From Nitrospira japonica (GTDB lineage Bacteria > Nitrospirota > Thermodesulfovibrionia > Thermodesulfovibrionales > SM23-35), in contig DYFC01000017.1 in assembly GCA_020725385.1 (NCBI GenBank), forward strand, positions 73,055-112,177: 39,123 nt of DNA, in the 5' to 3' direction. The position numbers and the translations under genes were made by a program. The notes beneath the pieces are model-generated. The model was given only the letters and a program-made list of their open reading frames with translations, was not told where the DNA came from and ran no database searches. Position 1 is the stretch's first letter. Each line of letters begins with the position of its first letter. Positions 7,158-39,123 of this stretch are shown here, piece after piece.

Positions 7158-8291
7158 TTAATTTATTGCAAATATTTTTTTTAATACATTTACAATATGT
7201 AATACTTCCGATTTTTTAAGTAATGGATACAAAGGTAAAGATATGGTTCTCTGACCAATTTCCTCGGCAACAGGAAAATCCCCTTCTTTAAATCCATAAG
7301 TTTTTCTGTAATATTTTAACAAATGGATAGGTCTATAATTTACAGCAACACCTATATTATTTTTCTGAAGTGACCATACAATCTGGTCCCTTCTTCTTGC
7401 AGGTACTAAAATTGTAAAAAGATGTCTTGCATGTTTAAGCCCGGGTAACGTCTTTAATAGGTTAATCTCTTTTATTGTTTTCAAAAAAGTCTCATAATAT
7501 TCCCAAAGTTGATTACGTTTTTCCCATAATTTATCTATCCGTCTCAATTGACCAAGTAAAAGAGATGCTTGAATATTATCCATGTTGTATTTCCATCCAA
7601 GAACCGGCATATCCCAGTGACGGTATTTCCCTGTATATCTATCTGCAGCAGATTTATCAATACCATGTAAACGTAACATTCTTAGGATCTCTGCAAGTTT
7701 TATATTATTTGTGCTTATAGCTCCTCCTTCACCTGAAGTAATATTTTTCGTAGCATAGAAACTGAAACAAGCAGCATCGGAGATTTGCCCTGGTTTTAAT
7801 CCTGCGCGTGATGCCTCGATTGAATGTGCGGCATCTTCTACTATTTTTAACTTATATTTGGAAGCTATTTTGTAAATTTTTTTCATATCACACATTTGCC
7901 CGTACAGATGTACAGGCAAGATTGCTTTTGTTTTTTCAGTAATAGCAGTCTCAAGAAGTTCTGCATTCATGTTGCCGGTGTCTTCTTCTACATCCACAAA
8001 TACAGGTTTTGCACCTGTGTGCAAAATTGAATTGGCTGTTGCACAAAAACTCATTGGAGTTGTTATAACTTCGTCTCCATTTCCTATCCCGAGGGCCAGT
8101 AAACTAAGATGAAGAGCGGCTGTACAGCTTGTAACGCCAACAGTTTGTTTTACACCCAGATACTTAGAGAAGGCTTCCTCAAAAAGGGCGACTTCAGTGC
8201 CGGTAGTAAGAAATATTGACCTGAGAACATGATTCAGCCTAAACAAATCATCATTATTAATGTTATGACGAAAAAATTCTATCTTTTTCAT
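7158..8291 (-). CDS. DegT/DnrJ/EryC1/StrS-family PLP sugar aminotransferase
   Basis: The 377-residue, full-length protein aminates a nucleotide-linked keto-sugar. The cofactor lysine is Lys182 in SFYATKNITSGEGGA, preceded by the EDAAH motif (152-156) that holds the pyridine ring. GVTSCTAALHLSL near residue 52 is the phosphate-cup region. ArnB, WecE and PseC relatives share these motifs, so the exact sugar cannot be assigned. The gene is divergent from an ArnC-like glycosyltransferase and a WecD-like N-acetyltransferase 92 bases away. This supports a pathway that makes an amino-sugar, N-acylates it and attaches it to a lipid carrier or glycan. ATG 8291 is the first in-frame start. Confidence 0.9.
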   Translation of the reverse strand: MKKIEFFRHNINNDDLFRLNHVLRSIFLTTGTEVALFEEAFSKYLGVKQTVGVTSCTAALHLSLLALGIGNGDEVITTPMSFCATANSILHTGAKPVFVDVEEDTGNMNAELLETAITEKTKAILPVHLYGQMCDMKKIYKIASKYKLKIVEDAAHSIEASRAGLKPGQISDAACFSFYATKNITSGEGGAISTNNIKLAEILRMLRLHGIDKSAADRYTGKYRHWDMPVLGWKYNMDNIQASLLLGQLRRIDKLWEKRNQLWEYYETFLKTIKEINLLKTLPGLKHARHLFTILVPARRRDQIVWSLQKNNIGVAVNYRPIHLLKYYRKTYGFKEGDFPVAEEIGQRTISLPLYPLLKKSEVLHIVNVLKKIFAIN

Positions 8292-8383
8292 AAAATATAG
8301 AAAAGAATATTTATTTTACTAATGTAACATGATTATAAATATCTGAATATGATAAAATTAAATTAAAAAACTTTAAAAGAATC

Positions 8384-9343
8384 ATGGATAATATAATACC
8401 AGAATTTTCAATAGTTATTCCTGTTTATAATGAACAAGAAAATATTCCCGAGCTTTATAAAAGATTAACCGAAGTAATGGATACACTTTGCACTTCCAGA
8501 GAACTATCAATAAATTATTATGAAATAATTATGGTAGATGATGGAAGTACAGATGGTTCATGGGAAATCATAAAGAAACTTCATTATGACGATAAAAGGG
8601 TCAAAGGCATAAATTTTTCACGTAATTTTGGACATCATATAGCAATTACTGCAGGACTTGATTACATAAAAGGTAATACTGTAATACTCATGGATGGAGA
8701 CCTGCAGGACCCGCCCGAAGAGATCCCGAAACTTTATCAAAAATTTCAGGAAGGGTATGATTTAGTTTACGGAATCAGACAGAAAAGAAATGACTCTTTA
8801 TTTAAGATATTGACTTCAAAGTTTTTCTGGTGGATTCTTAGAAAATTTTCAGGGGTGGAAATGCCAAAAGATCAAACAATGCTTAGAGTTCTGAGTAAAC
8901 GACTTGTTGAATCTATAAAACAAATGAGAGAAAATGCGAGGTTTATTCATGGAATGATGGCATGGGTAGGTTTTAATTCCGCTAATGTTGAAATCAGGCA
9001 TAATCCCAGAACAAAAGGTAAGAGTAAGTATAATCTACCCAAGATGTTTAAATTAGCTTTTCATGCAGTGACTTCATTTTCAGCTATTCCTTTAAAACTT
9101 GCATCCTATCTGGGATTTTCAAGCTCATTTCTAAGTTTTCTAATAGGATTATATTTCTTATATAAAAAGATTTTTTTTAACATTCCGGTTCCAGGTTATG
9201 CTTCTATAATAGTTTCGGTTTTTTTCGTTGGGGGTATTCAATTATTAGTGCTCGGGATAATGGGAGAATATATAGGAAGAACATATCAGGAAGTGCAGCG
9301 CAGACCTCTTTATATAATTAAGGAATCATTTATTGAAGAATAA
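8384..9343 (+). CDS. polyprenyl-phosphate glycosyltransferase, family 2 (ArnC/GtrB-like)
   Basis: The 319-residue protein has an N-terminal GT-A domain (FSIVIPVYNEQENI, VDDGSTDGSW, catalytic-region MDGDLQDPPEEIPKL) and a C-terminal pair of transmembrane helices (about 235-260 and 268-290) followed by the GEYIGRTYQEVQRRP tail. This is the arrangement of ArnC, GtrB and dolichol-phosphate-mannose-synthase-like enzymes, which load a sugar onto undecaprenyl phosphate at the inner membrane. The aminotransferase across the divergent promoter region and the acetyltransferase that overlaps its 3' end suggest that the transferred sugar is an acylated amino-sugar. That specificity is inference. Confidence 0.9.
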   Translation: MDNIIPEFSIVIPVYNEQENIPELYKRLTEVMDTLCTSRELSINYYEIIMVDDGSTDGSWEIIKKLHYDDKRVKGINFSRNFGHHIAITAGLDYIKGNTVILMDGDLQDPPEEIPKLYQKFQEGYDLVYGIRQKRNDSLFKILTSKFFWWILRKFSGVEMPKDQTMLRVLSKRLVESIKQMRENARFIHGMMAWVGFNSANVEIRHNPRTKGKSKYNLPKMFKLAFHAVTSFSAIPLKLASYLGFSSSFLSFLIGLYFLYKKIFFNIPVPGYASIIVSVFFVGGIQLLVLGIMGEYIGRTYQEVQRRPLYIIKESFIEE

Positions 9344-10052
9344 AATACCAATAATTGAATTAAAATGGGATACCAGATTATTCAATAAAAAGATCGGGAG
9401 GCTTTGTTTACTTCCAGGTTACATAAATAAGATTGACAAAATTATAAATGAAGCAAAATCCAAAGGCTTTTTATATTTAACCTGCAGAATTGAACCACCC
9501 AAATTTTCACAGATTCGTTTATTAGAATCTGCAGGATTTTATTTAACCGATGCAGGATTAACATTGGAAATAAAAACACCGAATTTATATTTAGGTGAAA
9601 ATTTAATCAAAGTTCCTATCAATACAGCAACTATTACGGATATTCCTGTTTTAAAAAAGATTGTAAAATCACTTTTTCTTCATAGTAGATTCTATCACGA
9701 CCCGTTTTTTACTAAAGATGATGCTGATAAAATCTATCAAGCATGGATTGAAGATGCAATAAAAGGGATTTCTGCCGATATCGTTTTCTGGGTAAAAAAT
9801 AAAGGTTTCATTGTTTGTAAAAAATCCCGTTTAAAAACAGGCGAAATTTCATTAATTGGGGTGGTTGATAAATTTAGAGGCAAAGGAATTGGTAAAGCAT
9901 TATTGGCTTCATCATTAAAATGGTTTGATAAGGAGGGTTTCAGTAAGGTAAGGGTAAGAACGCAGTTAATTAATATCAATTCTTTGAATTTTTACCTTTC
10001 TCATGGATTTTATGTGTATTCTTGTGATATGGTGTTTGGAAAAATACTATAA
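9333..10052 (+). CDS. GNAT N-acetyltransferase, WecD-like
   Basis: The 239-residue protein begins with IIELKWDTRLFNKKIGRL, which resembles the start of dTDP-fucosamine acetyltransferase WecD, and ends with a GNAT core. The acetyl-CoA-binding motif is VVDKFRGKGIGKALLASSL (about 185-203), followed by NINSLNFYLSHGF. It probably N-acetylates the sugar produced by the neighbouring aminotransferase; substrate identity is inferred from context. I chose TTG 9333 because AAGGA (9320-9324) is 8 bases upstream and the conserved N-terminus starts here. It overlaps the glycosyltransferase gene by 11 bases, so the pair is very likely co-translated. Confidence 0.82.
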   Translation: MKNKIPIIELKWDTRLFNKKIGRLCLLPGYINKIDKIINEAKSKGFLYLTCRIEPPKFSQIRLLESAGFYLTDAGLTLEIKTPNLYLGENLIKVPINTATITDIPVLKKIVKSLFLHSRFYHDPFFTKDDADKIYQAWIEDAIKGISADIVFWVKNKGFIVCKKSRLKTGEISLIGVVDKFRGKGIGKALLASSLKWFDKEGFSKVRVRTQLININSLNFYLSHGFYVYSCDMVFGKIL

Positions 10053-25517: not shown

Positions 25518-27137
25518 GTGTATTTATTAAGTCTTTTTAATATTGGCAAATCTGCAATATTTACAAGTCAGACCGCTCTCAATGTAACGAGCCATAATAT
25601 TGCTAATGTAAATACCCCGGGGTTTAGCAGGCAGGAGGCCGTACTTGAGGTGTCAACACCTATAGCTATGCGGGGGGGATTCCTTGGAAGCGGTGTTAAT
25701 GTAGAGCATATAAGAAGGCATTATGATAACTTTATTCAATCACAACTTTTGGGACAATATCAAAATTATGGAAGATCAACAGCTCTTGAGGATGCATTCA
25801 GTCAAATAGAGCAAATTTTTAATGAAGCAAAAAATATGGGATTATCAGTTCCACTATCGGATTTTTTTAATTCCTGGCAGGACTTAAGCGCAAATCCTGA
25901 AGGACAAACTCAGAGGACTGTATTACTTCAGAAGACTGGAAATCTTGTAATTGCAGCGAAGAGGATGGAACGGGGCATTATTGATAATTTAAGTAATTTA
26001 AATCAACAAATATCCGATATTGTTAATCGTGTTAATACCATAGCATCCCAAATTGCAGATCTTAATGAAAGAATTATTTCATCAGAAGGTTCATTTAATA
26101 CAGGGCAGGCAAATGACCTTAGGGACCAAAGACAAAATCTTTTGAATGAACTCAGCCAGCTTGTGGAAGCTTCTTCTTATGAAGAAAAAGATGGTTCGAT
26201 TAATATTTCGGTTGGAATGAAAAGCCTTGTATATAAAGGTGAATATAATGCTCTTAGTGTAAAAATAGACGAAGAAGGCAATAGGGAAATTTATCTTGAA
26301 AATTCAAATATTACTTTGAAAATAAATAAAGGGCAGATTGGGGGTATTATTTCTGCAAGAGATACCATTCAGGATAATCAATTAAAAGGTCTTAGAAGAT
26401 TTATCGCATCTCTTATCAAAGAAATTAACTTGATTCATCAAAATGGATACGGACTTGATGGAACTACCGGGAATAATTTTTTCAATCCCCTTGATTTATC
26501 TATTGGAAATTTTTCTTCAGGTGCAAGTATAACAGGTTCTATAACAAGTCTTTCACAGTTAACCCTTGATGAATATGAGATAACATTTGATGGTTCGGGA
26601 AATTATCATGTATTAAATAAAGATACAGATACTGAAGTTGCAACAGGTGCTTATATTTCCGGAAATCCAATAAATTTTGATGGAATTTCAATAACAATTA
26701 CAGGTGCTGTAAATTCAAATGACAAATTTAGCGTCAGTCCTTTGACAGGTGTAATACAGAATTTTGGTACAGCAATAAGTGATTACAGAAAAATTGCTGC
26801 TTCAGGTTCTTATTCAGGGTTACCCGGAGACAACACCAATGCTCTAAATATAATTAATCTTGCAGAGAAGAATTTATCCGAACTCGGTGGCAAGACTTTT
26901 ACAGGATTTTATAAAGGAATTGTGTCTGATATTGCCATGTTAACAAGCTCTGCTTCAGATAGTTTGACATTTGATGCAAAATTGCTCGAGGAAATAAATA
27001 TGAGAAGGGAATCTATATCAGGTGTTTCTCTTGATGAAGAAGCAGCAAATTTAATTAAGTACCAGCGCGCATTTGAAGCAGGGGCAAGAATTATCAAAGT
27101 AACAGATGAACTGCTTCAGACAATAATGAACCTATGA
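25518..27137 (+). CDS. flgK: hook-filament junction protein FlgK (HAP1)
   Basis: The 539-residue protein has the axial-protein N-terminus (GKSAIFTSQTALNVTSHNIA, then NVNTPGFSRQE) and a matching C-terminal helix, SGVSLDEEAANLIKYQRAFE, ending ELLQTIMNL. LSDFFNSWQDLSANPEGQTQ and RDQRQNLLNELSQLV are typical FlgK segments. It joins hook to filament. GTG 25518 is preceded by AAGGAG and is the only sensible start before the conserved helix. Its stop overlaps flgL by 4 bases. Confidence 0.96.
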   Translation: MYLLSLFNIGKSAIFTSQTALNVTSHNIANVNTPGFSRQEAVLEVSTPIAMRGGFLGSGVNVEHIRRHYDNFIQSQLLGQYQNYGRSTALEDAFSQIEQIFNEAKNMGLSVPLSDFFNSWQDLSANPEGQTQRTVLLQKTGNLVIAAKRMERGIIDNLSNLNQQISDIVNRVNTIASQIADLNERIISSEGSFNTGQANDLRDQRQNLLNELSQLVEASSYEEKDGSINISVGMKSLVYKGEYNALSVKIDEEGNREIYLENSNITLKINKGQIGGIISARDTIQDNQLKGLRRFIASLIKEINLIHQNGYGLDGTTGNNFFNPLDLSIGNFSSGASITGSITSLSQLTLDEYEITFDGSGNYHVLNKDTDTEVATGAYISGNPINFDGISITITGAVNSNDKFSVSPLTGVIQNFGTAISDYRKIAASGSYSGLPGDNTNALNIINLAEKNLSELGGKTFTGFYKGIVSDIAMLTSSASDSLTFDAKLLEEINMRRESISGVSLDEEAANLIKYQRAFEAGARIIKVTDELLQTIMNL

Positions 27138-28213
27138 GAATAACAACATCAATGATATTTAACCATATTGCCTCTTCTTTACAAAAGGACATAGAAGAGT
27201 ATGCTCATCTAAATGAACGACTTGCAACAGGCAAGAAGCTTAACAAAATATCCGATGATGTAACAGGCTCTATGAATGCTTTAGGGTATAGATTAAATAT
27301 CAGCATTAATGATCAATATAAAAGAAATATAAATATGACAAATATCCAGCTTGATTACACCACCAAAATTTTGGACTCTGTTTCTGATAGTTTGATCAAT
27401 CTCCATGAACTGGCTGCTATGGGTAATAATGCTCAATCAGAAGATAAAAGAATGTTTTATTCAAAACAAGCTGCTGACTGGAGGGATTATTTTCTAAGTC
27501 TTTCTAACAGTAAGCTGGATGGCAAATTTATTTTTTCGGGAAATAAAACCGATAAACAAACCTTTGTTTATAATTCTTTAACCGGAAAATATGACTATCA
27601 GGGAGATAACAGCGAGATAAATGTTCCAATAGATAAAGAGGCTTCTATTGTAATGAATATTCAGGGAAGCAGGGCTTTCAGCCTCAGTTTGACCGAACCT
27701 TTGCCTACCACTCTGTCGGACGGTACCCCGGTCAGTTTCAACCAGTCAAAAGATCCTTTAACAGGTATCAATACAGTAACAGTAACAATAGGTAACTCGG
27801 GCGAGCCCGATTATGATATATTTACATTTTCTAATTTTATGGATATAGCCAATATAATGAGTTATGCATGGCAATATAATGATATAAATGGTAGCAGTCT
27901 TAATTCAGATCCAGAAATAGCAGAAAAAATGGCTCTACATCGTATAGCAGCACTCGCAAAACCAATAGATGATGCCCGTGTTCAAACTCTGGGCATTCAG
28001 TCCGAGATAGGTACAAGACAAATAGTTCTCAATGATCAGAGTAAAAGGCTTAGTAGTAGTACAATTGTTATGCAAAATGCACTTACAAAAATAGAAGATG
28101 CTGACATGACTGAAACTGCAACAGAGTTACTTAAAACTCAAACTGCGCTTGAAGCACTCAGGGCATCAGCTTCAAAAATAATATCTCAATCGCTTCTTGA
28201 TTTTCTCAAATAA
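27134..28213 (+). CDS. flgL: hook-filament junction protein FlgL (HAP3)
   Basis: The 359-residue flagellin-related protein has N-terminal MRITTSMIFNHIASSLQKDI and LNERLATGKKLNKISDDVTG, a middle DGKFIFSGNKTDKQTF segment and the C-terminal flagellin-like ADMTETATELLKTQTALEAL, ending SQSLLDFLK. It forms the second junction layer. ATG 27134 overlaps the flgK stop (ATGA), so translation is coupled. In several other lineages fliW and csrA follow flgL; here the next gene is a giant glycosyltransferase with its own sigma-54 promoter. Confidence 0.94.
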   Translation: MRITTSMIFNHIASSLQKDIEEYAHLNERLATGKKLNKISDDVTGSMNALGYRLNISINDQYKRNINMTNIQLDYTTKILDSVSDSLINLHELAAMGNNAQSEDKRMFYSKQAADWRDYFLSLSNSKLDGKFIFSGNKTDKQTFVYNSLTGKYDYQGDNSEINVPIDKEASIVMNIQGSRAFSLSLTEPLPTTLSDGTPVSFNQSKDPLTGINTVTVTIGNSGEPDYDIFTFSNFMDIANIMSYAWQYNDINGSSLNSDPEIAEKMALHRIAALAKPIDDARVQTLGIQSEIGTRQIVLNDQSKRLSSSTIVMQNALTKIEDADMTETATELLKTQTALEALRASASKIISQSLLDFLK

Positions 28214-28398: not shown

Positions 28399-28414
28399 TG
28401 GCAAGACATTTGCT
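28399..28414 (+). promoter_or_regulatory. sigma-54 promoter of the giant glycosyltransferase gene
   Basis: TGGCAAGACATTTGCT matches the sigma-54 consensus with correct GG-GC spacing. Initiation would be near 28425, giving a leader of about 34 bases with AAGAGGG before ATG 28459. Confidence 0.85.
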
Positions 28415-28458
28415 ATCTTATTTTAAATAATAAAAATTATGTTTAAGAGGGTTTGAGT

Positions 28459-31400
28459 ATGTCTATATGTATTGCCGGGATGCATAGATCAGGGACTTCT
28501 ATGGTTGCGCGACTTTTAAATATCTGTGGATTATATCTGGGCGAAGAAAAAGATATTATGAAACCTCAAAGTGATAACCCTGAGGGTTTCTGGGAAAATA
28601 ATCATTTTGTAGAAATTAACGATAAAATTTTATCATCAAATGGGTATGGATGGGATCTCCCGCCAGTAAGTAATTATATTGATTTCAAAAAGGTGAATAA
28701 TGAAATAAAGAACGATGCGAAAGCTCTTATTGAATCTATGGAACTTAATACTCCATGGGGCTGGAAAGACCCTCGAAATAGCTTGAATCTCATTTTCTGG
28801 AGGGAATTGCTCCCGGATTTGAAAGTAATCATTTGTCTTAGAAATCCTCTTGAAGTAGCAATGTCATTAAAAAAGAGAGGTAATAGTTCTTGTGCTTTTT
28901 CTTTTAATCTCTGGTACTTATATAACAAAACAATTTTTGACAATATAGAACCGGAAAGAGTTCTTATTACCCATTATGCTTCTTTTTTTATAAACCCGGT
29001 TTATGAAATAAAACGTTTATTGAATTTTACAAAATTAAATATTGATAATGAAAAAATACACCACGCCTGTTCAAGTATAGCCAGTAAATTACGTCACTAT
29101 AATTATTCAGAAAATGATTTAATAAACGCCGGCGCATCTGAAGAAATCATAGGACTGTATAATAGTATGTGTGAAAAATCCGGCCCGGTTCTCAAACACT
29201 ATAAAATAACAAGTAGTGTGAATGTAGAAAATATCAATATCAAAATACACGAACTTGAAGAATTAATTCATGAATATCCTGATTACGCAGTTGCATATAA
29301 TGATCTCGGAGTAATTTACCATCAAATTGGGCGAAAAGAGAAATCTTTAACATGTTATGAAAAAGCTGTATCTTTAGAACCGGAAAATATTTTGTTTCAG
29401 AAGAATCTTGCTGATTATTACTGTTATGAATTAAACCGCTATGAAGAAGCTGCAAAAATTTATACCAGAGTTCTTGCGCAAAATAATAATGATGTTGAAG
29501 CACTTCTTCCTATAGGACATATCTGTATGATTCAAAAGAATTATAATGAAGCAGTATATTTTTATAAAAGAGTTTTGGAAATTGAGCCACAAAATAAAAT
29601 TGCGTTTGAAAAATTAGAACAGCTTTCTAAACTTGATTACAGTAATGATTATCCACTTGAAAAAATGGAGAAAGATTGTATTGACATAAATATCGAGAAT
29701 GCATCTAACAATGAATATTCGGTTAAAGTTACGCAGTTTAATGAAATTAAATTAATGGACTTTAAAAACGATGTAACAGAAAAAAATAATTTAATTTTAA
29801 AAACAGGAATGACGTCCATAATTATTCCTGTTTTTAACAAGATTGAATATACGAAAAAATGTCTTGAAGCTATTAGAAAAAATACTCCTGCGGAGAAATA
29901 TGAGATTATAGTTATTGATAATGCCTCTACAGATGGGACAAATGATTTTCTTAAATTGCAAGGGAATGGCATAAAGTTAATTACAAACACACAAAATATG
30001 GGTTTTACTTTTGCATGTAATCAGGGTGCTAAAATTGCTACCGGAGAGTTTGTACTCTTTCTTAATAATGATACAGAGCCACAAACAGGTTGGCTCGAGA
30101 GTATGGTTGAGCTAATGCAATCTGATAACATGATTGGCATTACGGGTTCTAAACTTATTTATCCTGATGGAAGACTTCAAGAAGCAGGAGGAATAGTTTT
30201 TAGTGATGGTAGCGGGTGGAATTATGGGAGGTTTGATGATCCTTTTAAGCCTCAATATAACTATGTAAGAGAAGTTGATTATGTTTCCGGGGCATCATTA
30301 ATGATACGCCATCCTTTGCTCAAAAAATTGAATTATTTTGATGAACGATATTCTCCCGGATATTATGAAGATACAGACCTATGTTTTGGAGCAAGGTCTC
30401 TTGGGTATAAAGTAATGTATTGTCCTTTTTCTATAGTTATTCACCATGAAGGAATAACAAGCGGAACCGATATTAAATCAGGAATGAAAAAGTTTCAGGT
30501 CATTAATAGGAAGAAATTCATAAATAAATGGAAAGAGGACTTAAAAAAACAATATCTTCCAGATAGTAAAAATGTTATAAATGCAAGTGAAAGAAATACT
30601 AAAGGCAATATAATTATTATTGATCCTTTCCTTCCAAAATTTGACAGAGCTTCAGGCTCACTCAGACTTTACTCAATGATAAAAATACTAAAAGAGCATA
30701 ATTACCATATAACATTTATAGCGAGAAATGGTCGAGGCCAAAAACAATATGAAAGAATACTTAATTTTATTGGAATAGAAGTATATGCAACCGATCCAGA
30801 AAGATTGAAAAAACTTGGGATTAATTTTGACGCAAAACCAATTAATATTGCTGAAATATTAACAATAAGACATTATGATATAGCAATCTTATCCTTTTAT
30901 GAGATAGCTGTTCAGTATCTTGATATTATTAGAATATACTCACCTGAAACAAAGATATTGATAGATACAGTTGATATACATTTTGTTAGAGAAATACGCA
31001 TGGCGGAAGTTATGAATGACAAAACTCTATTTAGAAAAGCGCATAAAACAAAAAATGAAGAATTATCTATTTACCGAAAGGCTGACGCAATTATAACTGT
31101 AACTGATAAAGATTGGGAACATGTTTCGGGTTATTTGCCGGGCATGAAGCATTTTGTTATCCCAAATATTCATGAAATATCAGAGGAAACTATTGAAAAT
31201 ACAAGCCGTAAAGGATTAATCTTTGTGGGTAACTTCAATCATCCACCTAATGCTGATGCAATATTATTTTTTATAAATGATATTTTCCCTATTATAAAGA
31301 AAAAAATTAACGATGTAACTTTCACAATAGTTGGTAATAATCCACCTGAAGAGATATTAAAACTTCACAATAATAAAGACATCTTAGTAACTGGTTATGT

Positions 31401-34400
31401 GCCTTCAACAACTCCATATTTGCAATCAGCGAGAGTATCTGTAGCTCCTCTTAGATATGGAGCGGGAATGAAAGGTAAGATAGGTGAAGCAATGTCCCAT
31501 GGATTACCTGTTGTAACAACTTCAATTGGGGCAGAGGGAATGGGAATTGTGAATGGAGAAAATGCTTTGGTTGCAGATACACCTGATGAATTTGCTGAAC
31601 AAGTCTATCAACTTTATACCGATGATAATAAATGGATAAAAATTTCTGAGTCAGGTAAAAATTTAATTAAAGATAACTATTCTAAAGAAAAAGTTGGTGA
31701 AATTATCACAAGAATATTGGATGAGTTAATTGAGAAAAAAACATATTCTGTAAGTTTTATAGATGAAAAGAAAATAACTAACGAATTGACTTCAATAATT
31801 ATTCTTACCTTTAATGAAATTAAATATACAAAAAAATGTTTTGAAAGTATTAAGACTTATACGCCTGAATCTCATGAGATAATTTTTGTTGATAATGGTT
31901 CAACAGATGGGACTGTTAAATGGCTCAGACAACTTGTAAATGAAAATAAAAATATAAAACTTATAGAAAACAAAACCAATCTCGGTTTTGCTAAGGGTTG
32001 CAATCAGGGAATTAATATGGCATCAGGTGAATATATACTTCTGTTGAATAATGATGTTGTAGTTACAAAAGGTTGGCTCTCGGGAATGCTTGATTGTATT
32101 AAAAGAGAAGAATCTATAGGCATCGTTGGCCCGATGACAAATAATATAAGCGGAATTCAGAGGGTCATTGATTATGAAAATATTAATTTAGAGAATTTAT
32201 TTGATTATGCAGAATCGTTCATGGAAAAAAATAAATACAGAAGAATACCTGTCAGAAGGGTAGCTGGTTTTTGTATGTTATTCAAGTATGAGCTTGTGAA
32301 GGATATTGGTATGCTTGATGAATCTTTTGGTTCTGGAAATTATGAAGATGATGATTTTTGTCTTAGAGCAATTCTTTCAGGATACAGGAATTATATTGCT
32401 GGAGATGTATTTATTTATCATTACGGAAGTAGAAGTTTTAAAGGGAATGGAATAGATTACAGAAAAGCAATAGAAAAAAACCAGAAAATATTTAAGAAAA
32501 AGTGGAACATAATCGATAGCAGCAGTTTATCAGGGGTAAATTTAGCTTTAATAAAGTGTCTTGAAAAAGCTGATATATATAGACAAAAAGGAAGGTATGA
32601 AGATTCGGTAAGGGAATATATTAAAGCAATACAAATTAATCCTGATGACGTAAAAAGTTATTATGCTTTTGCAGAGATGTTGGTAGCTGAGAAAAAATAT
32701 CAAGATGCTCTGGATGTTTTAAAACAGTCACCTGCTCTGGAAGAAGATTTAAATTTAATACTTCTTAAAGCCCTATGTTTCGAAGGTCTTGAGCTTATAC
32801 CAGAGGCTGAAGAATGTATTGATAAGATATTATTTTACGATAAATCTAATGTATATGCCCTTAATTTAAAAGGTCAAATAGCTTATAAAAAAGGCAATGT
32901 AATAGAATCAGAAAAAATATTTAGGCACATAACAGAATTAAATCCATCATATGGAGAACCATTCACAAATCTTGGTATTTTAAGATGGTCAGAAGGAAAA
33001 TATGAAGAAGCATTAAATCTAACTGAAAAAGGTTTTATACTCTCACCGAATAATAATGATATTGCTTCAATTTATCATTCAATTGTCTCTGCATTAGGTA
33101 AATATTCCAGATCTGAGAAAGTAATGAAAGAGGCAAAGGCACTATATCCTAATAGTAGAAAAATAACATTTTTGCTAATTGACGTTCTTATAAAACAGAA
33201 TAAAAATGTAGAAGCACTCAATTATATCCAGGAATCAATTACATCTTTTGGGAAAGATGACGGAATTATTGAAGCAGCACTTGAAGTAAGAAAAAGAATT
33301 GACGAAGCAAGTCAAGACAACGATTTAACCCCGTCAAAAAAATTACAAAAAACCGTAAAAACTCTTTCATTATGCATGATTGTTAAAAATGAGGAAAATA
33401 CTCTTCCTGATTGTCTGAATAGTATTAGAAATATTGTTGATGAAATTATTATTGTAGATACAGGTTCAACTGATAGAACTAAGGATATTGCAAAGATATA
33501 TGGTGCTAAGATTTATGATTTTAAATGGACAAATGATTTTTCTGAAGCAAGAAATTATTCTTTGTCAAAAGCAAATTGTGACTGGATACTCATTCTTGAT
33601 GCGGATGAGATAATTTCTCCTATAGACCATGACAGATTAAAAGAATTAATTAATAAAAAACAGAATGTCGCATATTCTATTACAACCCGCAATTATGTAA
33701 ATGTTTTTAATTTAGCAGGATGGACCTCAAACGGGAGCATTTATAGTAAAGAAGAAAAAGGGAAGGGATGGTTCCCGAGCACAAAAGTGAGATTGTTTCC
33801 AAATAAGAAAGGCATAAAATTCCACAATAAAGTACATGAATTAGTCGAACCTTCGCTTAAGGAAATTGGTATTCAAATAAAAAATTGTGATGTGGCTATA
33901 CACCATTACGGCAAACTTAATGATGATCATGTAATAGAAAAAGGTAAAGATTATTATAAACTCGGTATTCAAAAGATCGAAAATACAACAGACCCGAAAG
34001 CTCTTTACGAGCTTGCTATACAGGCTGGAGAACTTGATAGGCATCGAGAAGCCGTAGAATTATGGAAAAAACTTCTTCAAACTACTTCATCTTTGTCAGA
34101 TAATATTCTTCTTAAAGCTTATATAAATATGGGTCATGCTTATTTCCATTTGGGGATGTATAAAGAAGCATATGATGTCTCAAAAAAGGCTTATCTTATT
34201 TCTCCGGATTCACAGGATGCAATAATGAACTATTCACTTTCAGAAGTGTGGATAGGAGAAGCTGAAAAAGCTATTACTCTTATAAGAACTCTGCTTGAAA
34301 AGAAACCCGATTTCCCTCAAGCTATAGGTCTCCTCGGGATCGCTTATATGATTAAAGGGGATGAGGAAAAGGCATATAAATATCTCGAAAAGATAAAGAA

Positions 34401-34566
34401 AAAAGGTTTTAATTGTTCAAAATTTATTTATGATCATGCAAAGATACTTACCAGTACGGGCAAACGTGAATGTGCAATCATACTTATTAGGAAAGCCATA
34501 GAAATGAATTTGCTCGATGAACAACTACGGGATATATACGAAGAAGACATAATATTAAAGGGTTAA
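28459..34566 (+). CDS. giant sulfotransferase / triple GT-A / GT-B / TPR fusion, putative flagellar glycan synthase
   Basis: The protein is about 2035 residues. Domains in order: sulfotransferase-like P-loop domain, 1-250 (GMHRSGTSMVARLL for the PAPS 5'-phosphosulfate, WGWKDPRNSL, ICLRNPLEVAMSL for the 3'-phosphate); TPRs, about 258-390; family 2 glycosyltransferase (GT-A), about 451-690 (SIIIPVFNK, IDNASTDGT, LNNDTEP); GT-B/GT4-like domain, about 717-1092 (VGNFNHPPNAD, RYGAGMKGKIGEAMSHGLPV); second GT-A, about 1109-1350 (VDNGSTDGT, LNNDVVV); TPRs, about 1357-1615; third GT-A, about 1635-1820 (MIVKNEE, DTGSTDRT, LDADEI); TPRs to the end. ATG 28459 is preferred to TTG 28453 because AAGAGGG is spaced correctly. 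Context beside flgL, flaF/flbT and flagellin, plus a sigma-54 promoter, suggests filament or flagellin decoration. This is inference. Confidence 0.82.
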   Translation: MSICIAGMHRSGTSMVARLLNICGLYLGEEKDIMKPQSDNPEGFWENNHFVEINDKILSSNGYGWDLPPVSNYIDFKKVNNEIKNDAKALIESMELNTPWGWKDPRNSLNLIFWRELLPDLKVIICLRNPLEVAMSLKKRGNSSCAFSFNLWYLYNKTIFDNIEPERVLITHYASFFINPVYEIKRLLNFTKLNIDNEKIHHACSSIASKLRHYNYSENDLINAGASEEIIGLYNSMCEKSGPVLKHYKITSSVNVENINIKIHELEELIHEYPDYAVAYNDLGVIYHQIGRKEKSLTCYEKAVSLEPENILFQKNLADYYCYELNRYEEAAKIYTRVLAQNNNDVEALLPIGHICMIQKNYNEAVYFYKRVLEIEPQNKIAFEKLEQLSKLDYSNDYPLEKMEKDCIDINIENASNNEYSVKVTQFNEIKLMDFKNDVTEKNNLILKTGMTSIIIPVFNKIEYTKKCLEAIRKNTPAEKYEIIVIDNASTDGTNDFLKLQGNGIKLITNTQNMGFTFACNQGAKIATGEFVLFLNNDTEPQTGWLESMVELMQSDNMIGITGSKLIYPDGRLQEAGGIVFSDGSGWNYGRFDDPFKPQYNYVREVDYVSGASLMIRHPLLKKLNYFDERYSPGYYEDTDLCFGARSLGYKVMYCPFSIVIHHEGITSGTDIKSGMKKFQVINRKKFINKWKEDLKKQYLPDSKNVINASERNTKGNIIIIDPFLPKFDRASGSLRLYSMIKILKEHNYHITFIARNGRGQKQYERILNFIGIEVYATDPERLKKLGINFDAKPINIAEILTIRHYDIAILSFYEIAVQYLDIIRIYSPETKILIDTVDIHFVREIRMAEVMNDKTLFRKAHKTKNEELSIYRKADAIITVTDKDWEHVSGYLPGMKHFVIPNIHEISEETIENTSRKGLIFVGNFNHPPNADAILFFINDIFPIIKKKINDVTFTIVGNNPPEEILKLHNNKDILVTGYVPSTTPYLQSARVSVAPLRYGAGMKGKIGEAMSHGLPVVTTSIGAEGMGIVNGENALVADTPDEFAEQVYQLYTDDNKWIKISESGKNLIKDNYSKEKVGEIITRILDELIEKKTYSVSFIDEKKITNELTSIIILTFNEIKYTKKCFESIKTYTPESHEIIFVDNGSTDGTVKWLRQLVNENKNIKLIENKTNLGFAKGCNQGINMASGEYILLLNNDVVVTKGWLSGMLDCIKREESIGIVGPMTNNISGIQRVIDYENINLENLFDYAESFMEKNKYRRIPVRRVAGFCMLFKYELVKDIGMLDESFGSGNYEDDDFCLRAILSGYRNYIAGDVFIYHYGSRSFKGNGIDYRKAIEKNQKIFKKKWNIIDSSSLSGVNLALIKCLEKADIYRQKGRYEDSVREYIKAIQINPDDVKSYYAFAEMLVAEKKYQDALDVLKQSPALEEDLNLILLKALCFEGLELIPEAEECIDKILFYDKSNVYALNLKGQIAYKKGNVIESEKIFRHITELNPSYGEPFTNLGILRWSEGKYEEALNLTEKGFILSPNNNDIASIYHSIVSALGKYSRSEKVMKEAKALYPNSRKITFLLIDVLIKQNKNVEALNYIQESITSFGKDDGIIEAALEVRKRIDEASQDNDLTPSKKLQKTVKTLSLCMIVKNEENTLPDCLNSIRNIVDEIIIVDTGSTDRTKDIAKIYGAKIYDFKWTNDFSEARNYSLSKANCDWILILDADEIISPIDHDRLKELINKKQNVAYSITTRNYVNVFNLAGWTSNGSIYSKEEKGKGWFPSTKVRLFPNKKGIKFHNKVHELVEPSLKEIGIQIKNCDVAIHHYGKLNDDHVIEKGKDYYKLGIQKIENTTDPKALYELAIQAGELDRHREAVELWKKLLQTTSSLSDNILLKAYINMGHAYFHLGMYKEAYDVSKKAYLISPDSQDAIMNYSLSEVWIGEAEKAITLIRTLLEKKPDFPQAIGLLGIAYMIKGDEEKAYKYLEKIKKKGFNCSKFIYDHAKILTSTGKRECAIILIRKAIEMNLLDEQLRDIYEEDIILKG

Positions 34567-34586: not shown

Positions 34587-37265
34587 ATGAAAAATCATAA
34601 GAAAACAAAAACAAACGAAGTTCAGGATTTATTGCAGTACGCATTAAAGAATCATCGGGCAGGGAATTTCGATGAGGCAGAAACTGTTTATAGAAAGATA
34701 ATCAATAGGTATCCTAAGCAGGCAGATGCATTACATCTACTCGGTTTAATAGAATATCAAAAAAAGAATTATGAAGTTGCTGAACTACTAATAAGGAAAG
34801 CTATCCTATGCGATAGGAATGTACCTTTCTTTTTTCTTAACCTCGGGAATGTATTGAGAGATCAGGGAAGGATTAATGAGGCTGTCGAATATTATAGAAA
34901 AGCTATAAGAATAAATCCTGATTTTCCAGAAGCAAGATACAATCTTGCCAATGAATTGTTCAAAAAAGGTTTTTATGAGGAAGCTATATCTAACTATAAA
35001 ACAGCAATATCATTAAATCCCTTTATTGCAGAGTTCTATTTCAATCTTGCAAGGGCGTATCAGGAATCTGCCCGGTATGAAGAATCTGCAAACAGTTATG
35101 AAAAAGCTTTGTCATTGAAGCCGTATTATCCTGAAGCTTTTTATAACCTCGGCATTATATTTCAGGAACAGAAAAAATATAATGAGTCTGCAAATTATTA
35201 TATTAAGGCGATTCATATGAAACCCGATTATGAGGCTGCCTATTATAATCTTGGAGATGTTCTAAATGAAATGGAAAAATTCGATGAAGCCGAAACATAT
35301 CTTAAGAAAGCTATTTCGATAAAGCCTGATTTTGCGGAGGCTTATAATAATTTGAGTATTTCTTTAAGGAATCAAGGAAAAATAGAAGAAGCCCTCGAAG
35401 CGAGCAAAAAAGCCCTTGATATCCGATCTGATTTTGCAGAGGCATACAACAATCTTGGAATTGCTTTTAGGACGATGGGTAATATTGAAGAAGCTATCCG
35501 CAGTTTTAATAAAGCATTGACAGTAAATCCTTACTTATCAGAGGCTCATTTTAATATGTCTCTTGCTATGTTATCATCCGGGGATTTCAGAAATGGCTGG
35601 AAAAAATATGAGTGGAGGTTTATGAGAAAAAATGCAATATTCAGGGACATACGAATACCTTTATGGGATGGGATCCCGCATGGTGATAAAACAATACTTG
35701 TATACTCGGAGCAAGGAATAGGAGATGAAATTATGTTTATCTCATGTCTTTCTGATTTGATACAAGTATGGGGTTGTAGTATTGTCGTTGAATGTGACAG
35801 AAGGCTTAAGCCTCTTTTTTCGAGATCGTTTCCAGATGTTGAGTTTATTGAAAGAGGAAGTAAGTTACATAATTTTGATTTCAGAATACCAATAGGAAGT
35901 CTGGCAAAATTTTATAGAAATTCACTGGAAGATTTTCCCGAGAAGAAATCTTATCTTATCCCTGATACCCGGAAGCTTATTATTTGGAAGGAGCGGATGA
36001 ATGAACTTGGGCCAGGCTTGAAAGTTGGTATATCATGGCGTGGAGGTAAAGACCCCGCTGCACGAAGCTTGAGATCGACAAATTTAGAGCAATGGATGCC
36101 GGTATTTTATGTCAAGGGAGTTGAATTTATAAATCTACAGTACGGAGATTGCTACTCCGAAATTAATGATTTCTTTAAAAAATATGGTATTAGAATAAAT
36201 GACTGGGAAGATGCCGACCCTTTAAATGACCTTGATTTTTTTGCTGCACAGGTTTCAGCTCTTGATCTCGTCATTTCTATTGATAATTCAACAGTGCACA
36301 TGGCCGGAGCTCTTGGAATTCCGGTATGGACTTTACTACCTTATGGTGGTGACTGGAGGTGGATGCTAAATTATGAGGATACACCATGGTATCCGAGTAT
36401 GAGACTTTTCAGACAAAAGAATCATTGTAGATGGGAAGAGGTTTTTGAAAGGGTTGCATGGTCTCTGTCGAAATTGGTAGAGTCCGGGCATATCGAGAAA
36501 CCATTGGATGAAAATTCATATAAAAAGCACTTATATAATAAAAATTGCGGTAATGGAAAAAATATTAATGCTTCATATTCTAATAATAAGAAGTGTACAA
36601 ATAAAAATAATTCACTTAGATGCGCGGTTGTTACACCTGTAGGTCCGGGACACGAAAATATATATAAAGAATGTCTTGAATCTGTACAAAAAGCATCTAC
36701 AAATAACAAAGGAAAATTCGCTGAAATAATTCATTTAGTCATAGATGATACCGGAGGCAAAATCGGAAGGTCAAATGCAAGAAATATAGGTATTAAGAAA
36801 GCTGCTGACACAGGAGTGGATTGGATATTTTTTCTTGATGCAGACGATATAATGATGCCATTTGCATTTGAATATGTTTCTCCTTATCTTGATTATTACG
36901 ATGGTATCTGGGGATCTATATGGACCATTGAATCAGAAGATCCGGAGCCTAAAGAAAGACCCGGGCAGTTGCATTTCATTTACAATTTTGATGAATTGTT
37001 CTACTGTGATCCTTTTTTAACTCTACAGATGGGTCATTTTGTGAAAACATCTGCAGCTCTTGAAACACCTTTTAATGAGAATCTTGATGCTGGAGAGGAT
37101 TTTGAGTATTATCTCCGTCTCTGGAAAAAATATACTTGTATTAAGATACCGCTACCTTTTTTCTATAACCGCAGGGGGTTACATTCTACAGGGTTACACT
37201 CAGCTACAGGAAGAGATTGGAGACAAACTGTCGAAAATATTTTTAGAAAATATCGTCAAGGTTAA
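34587..37265 (+). CDS. TPR - GT9-like - GT-A fusion protein, putative flagellin glycosyltransferase
   Basis: The 892-residue protein has about nine or ten TPR repeats (residues 10-335, with repeated AEAYNNLG and KKALDI patterns). A GT-B domain resembling family 9 heptosyltransferases follows at about 345-640 (YSEQGIGDEIMF, GISWRGGKDPAARSLRS, SIDNSTVHMAGALGIPVW, GGDWRWM). A Lys/Asn-rich linker at about 645-675 leads to a C-terminal GT-A domain, 678-892 (VVTPVGPGHENIY, GRSNARNIGIKKA, FFLDADDIMMP). TPR-linked sugar transferases of this kind are often near flagellins. It follows the giant gene by 20 bases and is probably co-transcribed. Its stop overlaps the flaF stop on the other strand, with no terminator visible between. 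Confidence 0.82.
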   Translation: MKNHKKTKTNEVQDLLQYALKNHRAGNFDEAETVYRKIINRYPKQADALHLLGLIEYQKKNYEVAELLIRKAILCDRNVPFFFLNLGNVLRDQGRINEAVEYYRKAIRINPDFPEARYNLANELFKKGFYEEAISNYKTAISLNPFIAEFYFNLARAYQESARYEESANSYEKALSLKPYYPEAFYNLGIIFQEQKKYNESANYYIKAIHMKPDYEAAYYNLGDVLNEMEKFDEAETYLKKAISIKPDFAEAYNNLSISLRNQGKIEEALEASKKALDIRSDFAEAYNNLGIAFRTMGNIEEAIRSFNKALTVNPYLSEAHFNMSLAMLSSGDFRNGWKKYEWRFMRKNAIFRDIRIPLWDGIPHGDKTILVYSEQGIGDEIMFISCLSDLIQVWGCSIVVECDRRLKPLFSRSFPDVEFIERGSKLHNFDFRIPIGSLAKFYRNSLEDFPEKKSYLIPDTRKLIIWKERMNELGPGLKVGISWRGGKDPAARSLRSTNLEQWMPVFYVKGVEFINLQYGDCYSEINDFFKKYGIRINDWEDADPLNDLDFFAAQVSALDLVISIDNSTVHMAGALGIPVWTLLPYGGDWRWMLNYEDTPWYPSMRLFRQKNHCRWEEVFERVAWSLSKLVESGHIEKPLDENSYKKHLYNKNCGNGKNINASYSNNKKCTNKNNSLRCAVVTPVGPGHENIYKECLESVQKASTNNKGKFAEIIHLVIDDTGGKIGRSNARNIGIKKAADTGVDWIFFLDADDIMMPFAFEYVSPYLDYYDGIWGSIWTIESEDPEPKERPGQLHFIYNFDELFYCDPFLTLQMGHFVKTSAALETPFNENLDAGEDFEYYLRLWKKYTCIKIPLPFFYNRRGLHSTGLHSATGRDWRQTVENIFRKYRQG

Positions 37266-37645
37266 TCTTTGTCCGAGCCTCTCAATCCTGCTGCAATATT
37301 TAAATTGATATTTATAAGAATTGTCAATTTGTCGGATTCCGGAAAAGCCATTACTTCAAAGATTCTTTTATCAATAAATATGCTAAGACTGAGAAGATCT
37401 TCTTTTAATTTTTTTGGTAACGGATTTTCCGGCTTTGCCAGTTCTGTTTGAAATATACTCCATATAAATTGATTGAATCTAAGAGCATCTTTGAGTCTAT
37501 TCTCATGTCCTTCTGTGTCCCATCTATCCTGACATGCCAGAAGTTTTAAAGCTGCCTGTGTTAAGACCGATGCTTCAATTTCCCGGCCTGACATACTAAT
37601 TTTCTGGGTCTTTCTATAAGCTTCTACTTGTTGTGTTGCGAACAT
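37262..37645 (-). CDS. flaF: flagellin biosynthesis regulator FlaF
   Basis: The 127-residue protein is typical for FlaF: GREIEASVLTQAALKL then LKDALRFNQFIWSIFQTELA and NPLPKKLKEDLLSLSIFIDK. In Caulobacter FlaF is needed for flagellin synthesis and export and works opposite FlbT. ATG 37645 is fixed by GAGGAGG 8 bases upstream, inside the end of flbT, giving a 32-base overlap of the two genes. Together with flbT and the 167-residue gene it forms a unit downstream of flagellin. Confidence 0.9.
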   Translation of the reverse strand: MFATQQVEAYRKTQKISMSGREIEASVLTQAALKLLACQDRWDTEGHENRLKDALRFNQFIWSIFQTELAKPENPLPKKLKEDLLSLSIFIDKRIFEVMAFPESDKLTILININLNIAAGLRGSDKD

Positions 37646-38024
37646 TATTTACAACCTCCTCTTCATAGTTAATTAATTTACGTGCAAGTTTTAAGGCTTT
37701 ATAATATTTATTAGAGAGAATATGCTCACTTATTTGATCAATGATGTGAAGTAACCTTGGAGCAGCATCAATTAAATCATGAACAATTTTCCAATATAAA
37801 TTATGATATTCTTTCAGTTTTTTTTCATCTATATACATAAGCTGAATTATGAAATAAAGACGTTTGCATGGAGTAGTAGCATCTTTTTCGCTCATTATAT
37901 CTTTTTCCCTTAATATAGGGACATCATTTTCAACAATAAGAATAGAGCGAGCGCTGCCATTTGTTACGACAGCGCCGCCTATAATTACCCGTTCCCGTAG
38001 TTTCAATGTTATTTTTAGCGCCAT
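37614..38024 (-). CDS. flbT: flagellin mRNA regulator FlbT
   Basis: The 136-residue protein carries the FlbT signature: ITLKLRERVIIGGAVVTNGS near the N-terminus, ILREKDIMSEKDATTPCKRL (about 37-56) and YFIIQLMYID. In alphaproteobacteria FlbT binds the flagellin transcript and lowers its translation until the hook is complete. Here it is three bases downstream of the unknown 167-residue gene and overlaps flaF. Its presence beside flgM and sigma-28 regulation is noteworthy. A direct test of RNA binding in this lineage is not known to me. Confidence 0.92.
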   Translation of the reverse strand: MALKITLKLRERVIIGGAVVTNGSARSILIVENDVPILREKDIMSEKDATTPCKRLYFIIQLMYIDEKKLKEYHNLYWKIVHDLIDAAPRLLHIIDQISEHILSNKYYKALKLARKLINYEEEVVNNVRNTTSRSL

Positions 38025-38027
38025 TTT

Positions 38028-38531
38028 CTATACCAGTCCCAATAATTCAGAATGATTTACAGTTATGCTGTATGAGCTTGAATCAGAAAAAGATTTTTTA
38101 ACTTCCATGCTTTTAATTTCTGCTTCAAGTTCCTGGATTCGTTTTTCTTCAGGAATAATTTTTTTTCCAGTGTTTTGTTCTAAAGAAAACCGGGCTATTT
38201 GTTCTCTGAACAACAAGAAGTTCTTTAGAAGTCTTATTCTGTCTTCGCTACCTGGCGGATATGGAGGATAGAATTTGTTCAGAGATAGATTTTGAGATTT
38301 AACATGTGAAATATAGTCTTTTATAACCTCATCAGTATTATGTGTTTCTTTAAAAATATTTTCAGCACCGGAATTTTTGTCAGGATGATGAACAAGTTGG
38401 GATTTTTCATTAATAGTTTTCTTAATCTTAATGTTATTTCCACTGACTTGAGACAGTTTGCGTTCGCTATCCTTTTTGATATTGTCAGGATAAATGTTGT
38501 ATATATTTGATCCTATTTTCCCTACTGACAT
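38028..38531 (-). CDS. 167-residue protein of unknown function between flagellin and flbT
   Basis: I do not recognise this protein. The first ~75 residues are polar and probably disordered, rich in Lys, Asn and Ser. A compact motif follows, FYPPYPPGSEDRIRLLKNFL then LFREQIARFSLEQ (about 87-115), with a later coiled-coil helix EEKRIQELEAEIKSMEVKK. The aromatic/proline motif plus helix could be a docking element. There is no signal peptide or membrane helix. Its position in a tight unit (3 bases before flbT) suggests a role in flagellin expression, export or filament assembly. Confidence 0.7.
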   Translation of the reverse strand: MSVGKIGSNIYNIYPDNIKKDSERKLSQVSGNNIKIKKTINEKSQLVHHPDKNSGAENIFKETHNTDEVIKDYISHVKSQNLSLNKFYPPYPPGSEDRIRLLKNFLLFREQIARFSLEQNTGKKIIPEEKRIQELEAEIKSMEVKKSFSDSSSYSITVNHSELLGLV

Positions 38532-38585: not shown

Positions 38586-39123
38586 TTAGAATAACCTCAA
38601 TACAGACTGTGCTGCCTGTGAAGCAAGAGACAATGCTGTAGTTCCAAGAGCCTGTCTGGTCTGCAACATTAGCATGTTAGCTCCTTCTTCGTTCATATCA
38701 GCCAATGTCAGCTTATCAGCACCTGTCTGTAGTGTGTTGATCATACCAGTTGTAAATTCCTGACGGATAGTGATAACGCTTAAGTTCGATGCGAGTGTTG
38801 ATGCTTGTGATCTAAGAGTACCTAAAGCTGCATCAAGGTCGCTAACTGCTGCATCTATGTCTGTATCAGCAGCCCAATCATTTTGTGCTGCACTAATGCT
38901 AAGGCCTGAAGATGAGGCATCAAATCCACTTACTGTTAATGAACTGCTACCATCTTCATTGAAATCAACAGTGAGGTCTCCGCTATCAAGAAGATTAATT
39001 CCCTTATATCCTGAATCACTTGCGAGTTCATCAATTTGATCAAGTAATGCATCAAATTGTGTAGCAAGAGTTGAACGGCCCGCTGCATCAGCTGAACGTG
39101 CTGATTGTGTGAGACCTTTTGCT
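38586..39123 (-). CDS. flagellin, C-terminal part (runs off the window)
   Basis: About 178 C-terminal residues are present; the N-terminal half is outside the window. The conserved flagellin C-terminal domain is clear: a run starting LTQSARSADAAGRSTLATQF, then LASDSGYKGINLL and RQEFTTGMINTLQTGADKL, and the end MLQTRQALGTTALSLASQAA with QSVLRLF. The GYKGINLL segment and the SLASQAAQSVLRLF end resemble flagellins of species that use FlaF/FlbT, consistent with the two regulators downstream. It is secreted by the flagellar export apparatus to form the filament. It is the best candidate target of the glycosyltransferases encoded on the opposite strand. Ser/Thr-rich stretches (SGFDASSSGLSIS) could be O-glycan sites. 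Confidence 0.93.
   Translation of the reverse strand, partial: AKGLTQSARSADAAGRSTLATQFDALLDQIDELASDSGYKGINLLDSGDLTVDFNEDGSSSLTVSGFDASSSGLSISAAQNDWAADTDIDAAVSDLDAALGTLRSQASTLASNLSVITIRQEFTTGMINTLQTGADKLTLADMNEEGANMLMLQTRQALGTTALSLASQAAQSVLRLF

Follow-up and report, generated by a model that had tools for sequence, protein, structure and literature searches.

A giant sulfotransferase-glycosyltransferase protein in a flagellar locus that probably builds a sulfated glycan on flagellin

We analyzed a stretch of 39,123 nucleotides from an assembly named Nitrospira japonica (GCA_020725385.1, contig DYFC01000017.1, positions 73,055 to 112,177 of the forward strand; hereafter, the window), in which the gene directly after flgL encodes a giant protein of 2035 aa combining a sulfotransferase (ST) domain, glycosyltransferase (GT) domains, and tetratricopeptide repeats (TPR). 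As related proteins are found in the flagellum neighborhoods of distant relatives, the likely role of the giant is to build a sulfated sugar chain on flagellin. The reading that we favor, with a probability of about 0.65, is that the giant is a flagellin O-glycosyltransferase of the cytoplasm, with fused modules that lengthen the glycan and finish it with sulfate. The link to flagellin modification has good support from the conserved position of these genes across families and in another class, from the flagellar loci of the nearest ST relatives, and from the similarity of the last module to GmaR and SunS.

Architecture and conservation of the giant gene

The reading frame (28453-34566, +) runs from end to end without interruption. 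The likelier start codon appears to be the ATG at 28459, preceded by a Shine-Dalgarno-like AAGAGGG (28445..28451, +), which gives a gene at 28459..34566 (+) and a product of 2035 aa. Pfam matches follow one another in the order Sulfotransfer_3 (36.9 bits, cut-off of 27), TPR, Glycos_transf_2, Glyco_trans_1_4 (PF13692, E value of 5.6e-29), Glycos_transf_2, TPR, Glycos_transf_2, and TPR, with an E value of 9e-87 for the three Glycos_transf_2 stretches. These correspond, all on the plus strand, to the ST domain (28459..29217), TPR block a (29245..29652), the GT-A domain GT2a (29809..30552), the GT-B domain GT4 (30571..31728), the GT-A domain GT2b (31765..32487), TPR block b (32560..33252), the GT-A domain GT2c (33355..33927), and TPR block c (33940..34512). 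NND or DAD motifs are retained in the GT2 domains, with an additional EDxD motif in GT2a and GT2b. Of the 30 Pfam matches to the giant, 25 were listed, and MAF_flag10 was not one of these; the rest of the genome was not searched for it.

Another species of the genus (G002) has an orthologue with 75% identity, and every domain tested was conserved between the two. The dN/dS values of 0.16/0.97 (NG86) indicate purifying selection on the protein. TPR block a seems dispensable, since the orthologue lacks it.

Upstream of the giant there is a flagellar operon whose last genes are flgK and flgL, the latter (27134..28213, +) identified by its Flagellin_N/C domains. Ahead of the giant, the sigma-54-type promoter site TGGCAAGACATTTGCT (28399..28414, +) departs by one mismatch from TGGCACGN4TTGCW, and only 0.05 such sites would be expected per window. 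The counterpart TGGCAGGACATTTGCT is kept at the equivalent place in G002, where the intergenic gap is just 62 bp. An initial annotation of this DNA had described one frame of about 2035 residues with a PAPS-type (3'-phosphoadenosine 5'-phosphosulfate) sulfotransferase, three GT-A domains, one GT-B domain, and three TPR blocks, located directly after flgL and with its own sigma-54 promoter, and our analysis agrees on all of these points. It had also placed the giant upstream of flaF-flbT-flagellin, which needs correction: these genes are on the minus strand, convergent on the giant, and a gene of 892 aa intervenes.

Core proteins in flagellar loci

The convergent genes comprise flaF (37262..37645, -; PF07309, 5.6e-32), flbT (37614..38024, -; PF07378, 5.8e-45), a gene of 167 aa (38028..38531, -), and flagellin (38586..39123, -), the likely acceptor, whose N terminus extends past the contig end. 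Both the window and its contig stop inside this gene, which is 88% identical to the flagellin fragment of G002. In relatives, among them G280, a genome from another class, counterparts similar in size to the 167-aa gene are found in this position. The contig of G002 likewise starts inside flagellin. A contig designated C3 starts with a flagellin N terminus on the minus strand (L050:1-96) and may join the contig end of the window; near it are two response-regulator-like genes (L050:656-2723), possible flagellar regulators judged by their first residues only.

We searched the 121 genomes of the window's order with FlgL and the giant and read the resulting loci. What recurred was a core, GT2b-TPRb-GT2c(-TPRc). 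Core proteins were found no further than about 15 kb from flgL or flagellin in G000, G002, G054, G060, G072, G081, G086, G089, G096, and G103, which together with G280 makes 11 genomes with a core protein near one of these genes, mostly between both. In G060 and G086, from another family, flgL is followed by a core protein and then by convergent flaF-flbT-u-flagellin (u being the gene between flbT and flagellin), that is, the window's order with a few extra genes. In G110, the contigs were too short to place the core protein with respect to flgL. The initial annotation had suggested checking whether homologues co-occur with flagellin and had named a consistent location in O-antigen or capsule loci as the finding that would speak against a flagellar role. 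The synteny survey led us to reject such a location as a general rule for this arrangement, with the caveat that some weaker ST fusions do sit in non-flagellar loci.

The modules outside the core are less constant. In G089, GT2a-GT4 forms a separate gene adjoining the core, and a close paralogue of this unit (43%) is found on another contig of the window's own genome. A related-locus search of genome contigs gave two short matches at 59%, both from Roseburia metagenome-assembled genomes (MAGs), so that named relatives are few; these uncultured Roseburia contigs (L033 and L034, 10001-10294) match GT2c over 98 residues. A tblastn search against plasmids recovered mostly generic glycosyltransferases and sulfotransferases at low identity. 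Elsewhere, in relatives where flgL was not detected, even larger GT/TPR proteins of ca. 2,900 to 3,900 aa are encoded among many TPR genes (L036:1606-13248, L041:11344-19998, and L044:12321-20000).

The sulfotransferase domain and its relatives

Both PAPS-binding motifs of the ST domain, the 5'-phosphosulfate-binding GMHRSGTS and the 3'-phosphate-binding RNPLEVAMSLKKR, are intact, and across 19 sequences their key residues showed little or no variation. The structural model of the domain (pLDDT of 90.8) matched, at an E value of ≤0.001 against the PDB, sulfotransferases or enzymes of sulfotransferase fold such as retinol dehydratase. The enzyme that supplies PAPS, adenosine 5'-phosphosulfate (APS) kinase, is encoded at two loci of the genome, one of them adjoining another sulfotransferase gene. 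By profile, motifs, and fold, the N-terminal domain is therefore predicted to be a PAPS sulfotransferase that would transfer sulfate. It might instead be a leftover or a noncatalytic PAPS binder in an otherwise ordinary multistep flagellin glycosyltransferase, as the modest Pfam match and the relatives with other modules in its place could suggest, but the PAPS motifs are invariant, the domain alone shows a dN of 0.16 against a dS of 0.89 (G000 versus G002), and such ST domains recur in independent flagellin loci, which makes this distinctly improbable.

The closest ST relatives outside the genus, at 46 to 52% identity, come from G027 (49 to 50%), G148 (52%), G124 (47 to 48%), and G280, and all are in flagellin loci. 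In the first three, flagellin-flaG-fliD-fliS precedes the ST gene; Pfam confirmed flagellin, FliD, and FliS in G027 and flagellin and FliD in G124, and the remaining assignments are based on similarity. In G027, a 379-aa ST-TPR protein adjoins a GT2/GT4 gene, an arrangement that resembles a split form of the N-terminal half of the giant. G124 encodes, just past the fliS end of the operon, a 737-aa ST-ST-TPR protein with two tandem ST domains (L182:591-2804, -).

We searched the class and the phylum with a profile built from five ST sequences, and its sole new strong match was G280 (334 bits). Here, a 1208-aa ST-GT2b-TPRb-GT2c-TPRc protein, with 37 to 61% identity to the giant depending on the domain, is followed by three TPR/GT-like genes and then by convergent flaF-flbT-u-flagellin, which, judged from its genes, is the window's arrangement in another class. 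The flagellin locus of G280 (L222:8676-19901 and L223:1-4700) contains three ST domains as well as a pyruvyltransferase fused to a TPR protein. Weaker profile matches (up to about 224 bits) were mostly in loci without recognized flagellar genes. In a tree from which three long or odd rows had been left out, the six flagellar STs formed one group (support of 75/83); with all rows kept they were split, and a single group was not rejected (p-AU of 0.12).

Several observations weigh against a sulfating flagellin O-glycosyltransferase. Regarding the acceptor, the core protein and flgL of G113 lie on different contigs, and core proteins are also encoded in genomes of the family that yielded no flgL (G004, G007, G008, G014, and G015), so the core is not exclusively flagellar. 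With the GT2a-GT4 paralogue and the several weaker ST fusions in non-flagellar loci, this would fit an acceptor other than flagellin, some other surface polymer or protein, the flagellar placement then coming from co-regulation or chance. We consider this unlikely, given that the placement between flgL and flagellin is repeated across several families and in one other class and that flagellin operons contain the nearest ST relatives. Regarding the ST domain, we saw it fused to the core in the window, G002, and G280 only; the flagellar core proteins of G060 and G089 have a methyltransferase but lack the ST; and the ST domain was not found in the 13 class relatives of G280, so its distribution is patchy. 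Furthermore, G074, a weaker ST relative, is also in a flagellin locus, so that locus type and tree coincide imperfectly. Finally, the structural matches of the ST model are weak (TM of ca. 0.5), and the best of them are protein-tyrosine (tyrosylprotein) sulfotransferases, which, together with the ST-TPR fusions of G124 and G027 that have no GT in the same protein, would agree with a giant that glycosylates flagellin while its ST domain adds sulfate to the flagellin polypeptide, for example to tyrosine, and not to the glycan. This is rather improbable: carbohydrate and small-molecule sulfotransferases are also among those weak matches, ST-GT fusions are present in three genomes, and GT genes stand beside the ST in G027.

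Comparison with known systems and proposed mechanism

Within the conserved core, the last module gives the best indication of what the protein may act on. GT2c matched GmaR with an E value of 3.5e-30 over the GT domain only, and in the giant a TPR block follows; GT2c-TPRc also matched the SunS/ThuS peptide S-glycosyltransferases by fold (Foldseek E value of 4e-16), with which it has in common a GT2 plus helical-repeat fold. Both families act on polypeptides. The stand-alone enzyme SunS modifies a bacteriocin precursor, and the giant is far below the curated cut-off of the NCBIfam SunS model (93.8 versus 350 bits). GmaR is a GT2-TPR protein that glycosylates flagellin in Listeria (PMC9638930). 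This O-GlcNAc transferase of Listeria monocytogenes flagellin, which is also the antirepressor of MogR, resembles the giant in having GT2 followed by TPR and, as predicted for the giant, a protein acceptor and a flagellar role; it differs in being smaller, at 637 aa, and in combining a single GT domain with an antirepressor domain, whereas the giant has three more GTs and an ST fused to it. Since GmaR was the best solved match of GT2c and has a regulatory function, the giant might be imagined as a GmaR-like regulator more than an enzyme, but the match spans the GT domain only, an antirepressor domain was not recognized among the Pfam matches listed for the giant, whose frame ends in TPR, and the four GT domains and the ST keep their catalytic motifs, so we regard this as highly improbable.

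FlmG of Caulobacter provides a second comparison. Its TPR domain binds flagellins in the cytoplasm and the fused GT modifies them, in an organism that also has FlaF and FlbT (PMC7591256). FlmG, with 596 aa, uses pseudaminic acid, whereas no genuine NeuB was found in the genome of the giant (about 97% complete). Pseudaminic or legionaminic acid as the donor was rejected when the single NeuB match proved to be a 3-deoxy-D-arabino-heptulosonate 7-phosphate (DAHP) synthase, and for that reason there is no clear sign that the sugar is a nonulosonic acid. The window contains possible amino-sugar genes (7158-10052) upstream of those for chemotaxis and the flagellum, namely, a PseC/ArnB-like DegT aminotransferase below the PseC cut-off, a GT2, and a WecD-like acetyltransferase.

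The 892-aa gene (34587..37265, +), absent from the initial annotation, begins 20 bp past the stop codon of the giant and is probably in one operon with it; a counterpart is found beside flaF in G035. Its product has an N-terminal TPR domain (Pfam), a middle region with a weak GT-B match (PF01075, E value of only 0.22), and a GT2-like C terminus, similar to FlmG in its TPR plus GT layout, by which alone the two were likened.

By analogy with FlmG and GmaR, flagellin binding and the first step of the glycan may fall to the core, and extension and capping to the variable modules. We propose that the TPR blocks bind flagellin ahead of export and that GT2c-TPRc puts the first sugar directly on flagellin side chains, after which GT2b, GT4, and GT2a would lengthen the chain using nucleotide sugars and the ST domain would move sulfate from PAPS onto the glycan, giving the filament a negatively charged surface. 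The 892-aa protein could add a further sugar or help to present flagellin, and sigma-54 control would time expression with late flagellar genes. The initial annotation had envisaged a single-protein assembly line that builds and sulfates a glycan on flagellin. The fusion of several GTs with an ST holds, and the link to flagellin modification has good support, while the assembly line is too strong a term, with a second TPR/GT gene following and several modules occurring as separate genes in relatives, and the sulfate is placed on the glycan only as a prediction.

Sulfur-containing or sulfated filament glycans have precedents of other kinds. The type B flagellin of Clostridioides difficile carries an acidic glycan with a sulfonated peptidylamido group, and the parts of the source available to us describe no fused sulfotransferase such as that of the giant (PMC5207245). 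In Halobacterium, a sulfated tetrasaccharide was reported on the archaellin of the motility filament, which is archaeal and N-linked, and a later mass spectrometry study detected no sulfate and found no sulfotransferase gene in the cluster (PMC6591318). Flagellin glycosylation is common, and the flagellin glycosyltransferases compared here, GmaR and FlmG, have a single GT domain each. The sulfonated group of C. difficile is reportedly taurine. Our literature search turned up neither sulfate-ester glycans on bacterial flagella nor a sulfotransferase linked to bacterial flagellin glycosylation; most subscription papers were outside the search, so this absence is weak evidence.

The new part would therefore be the combination of the already known flagellin O-glycosylation with a fused sulfotransferase. 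We place at even odds the wider proposal that bacterial flagellins carry sulfate-ester glycans made by cytoplasmic fused GT-ST proteins, a patchy system spread over at least two classes of the phylum in which methyltransferase or pyruvyltransferase modules would be able to take the place of the ST. If this is so, a single protein would, ahead of export, recognize flagellin, assemble the chain, and end it with sulfate, providing a compact system to study how module fusion sets the order of glycosylation and predicting which uncultured genomes should have sulfated filaments.

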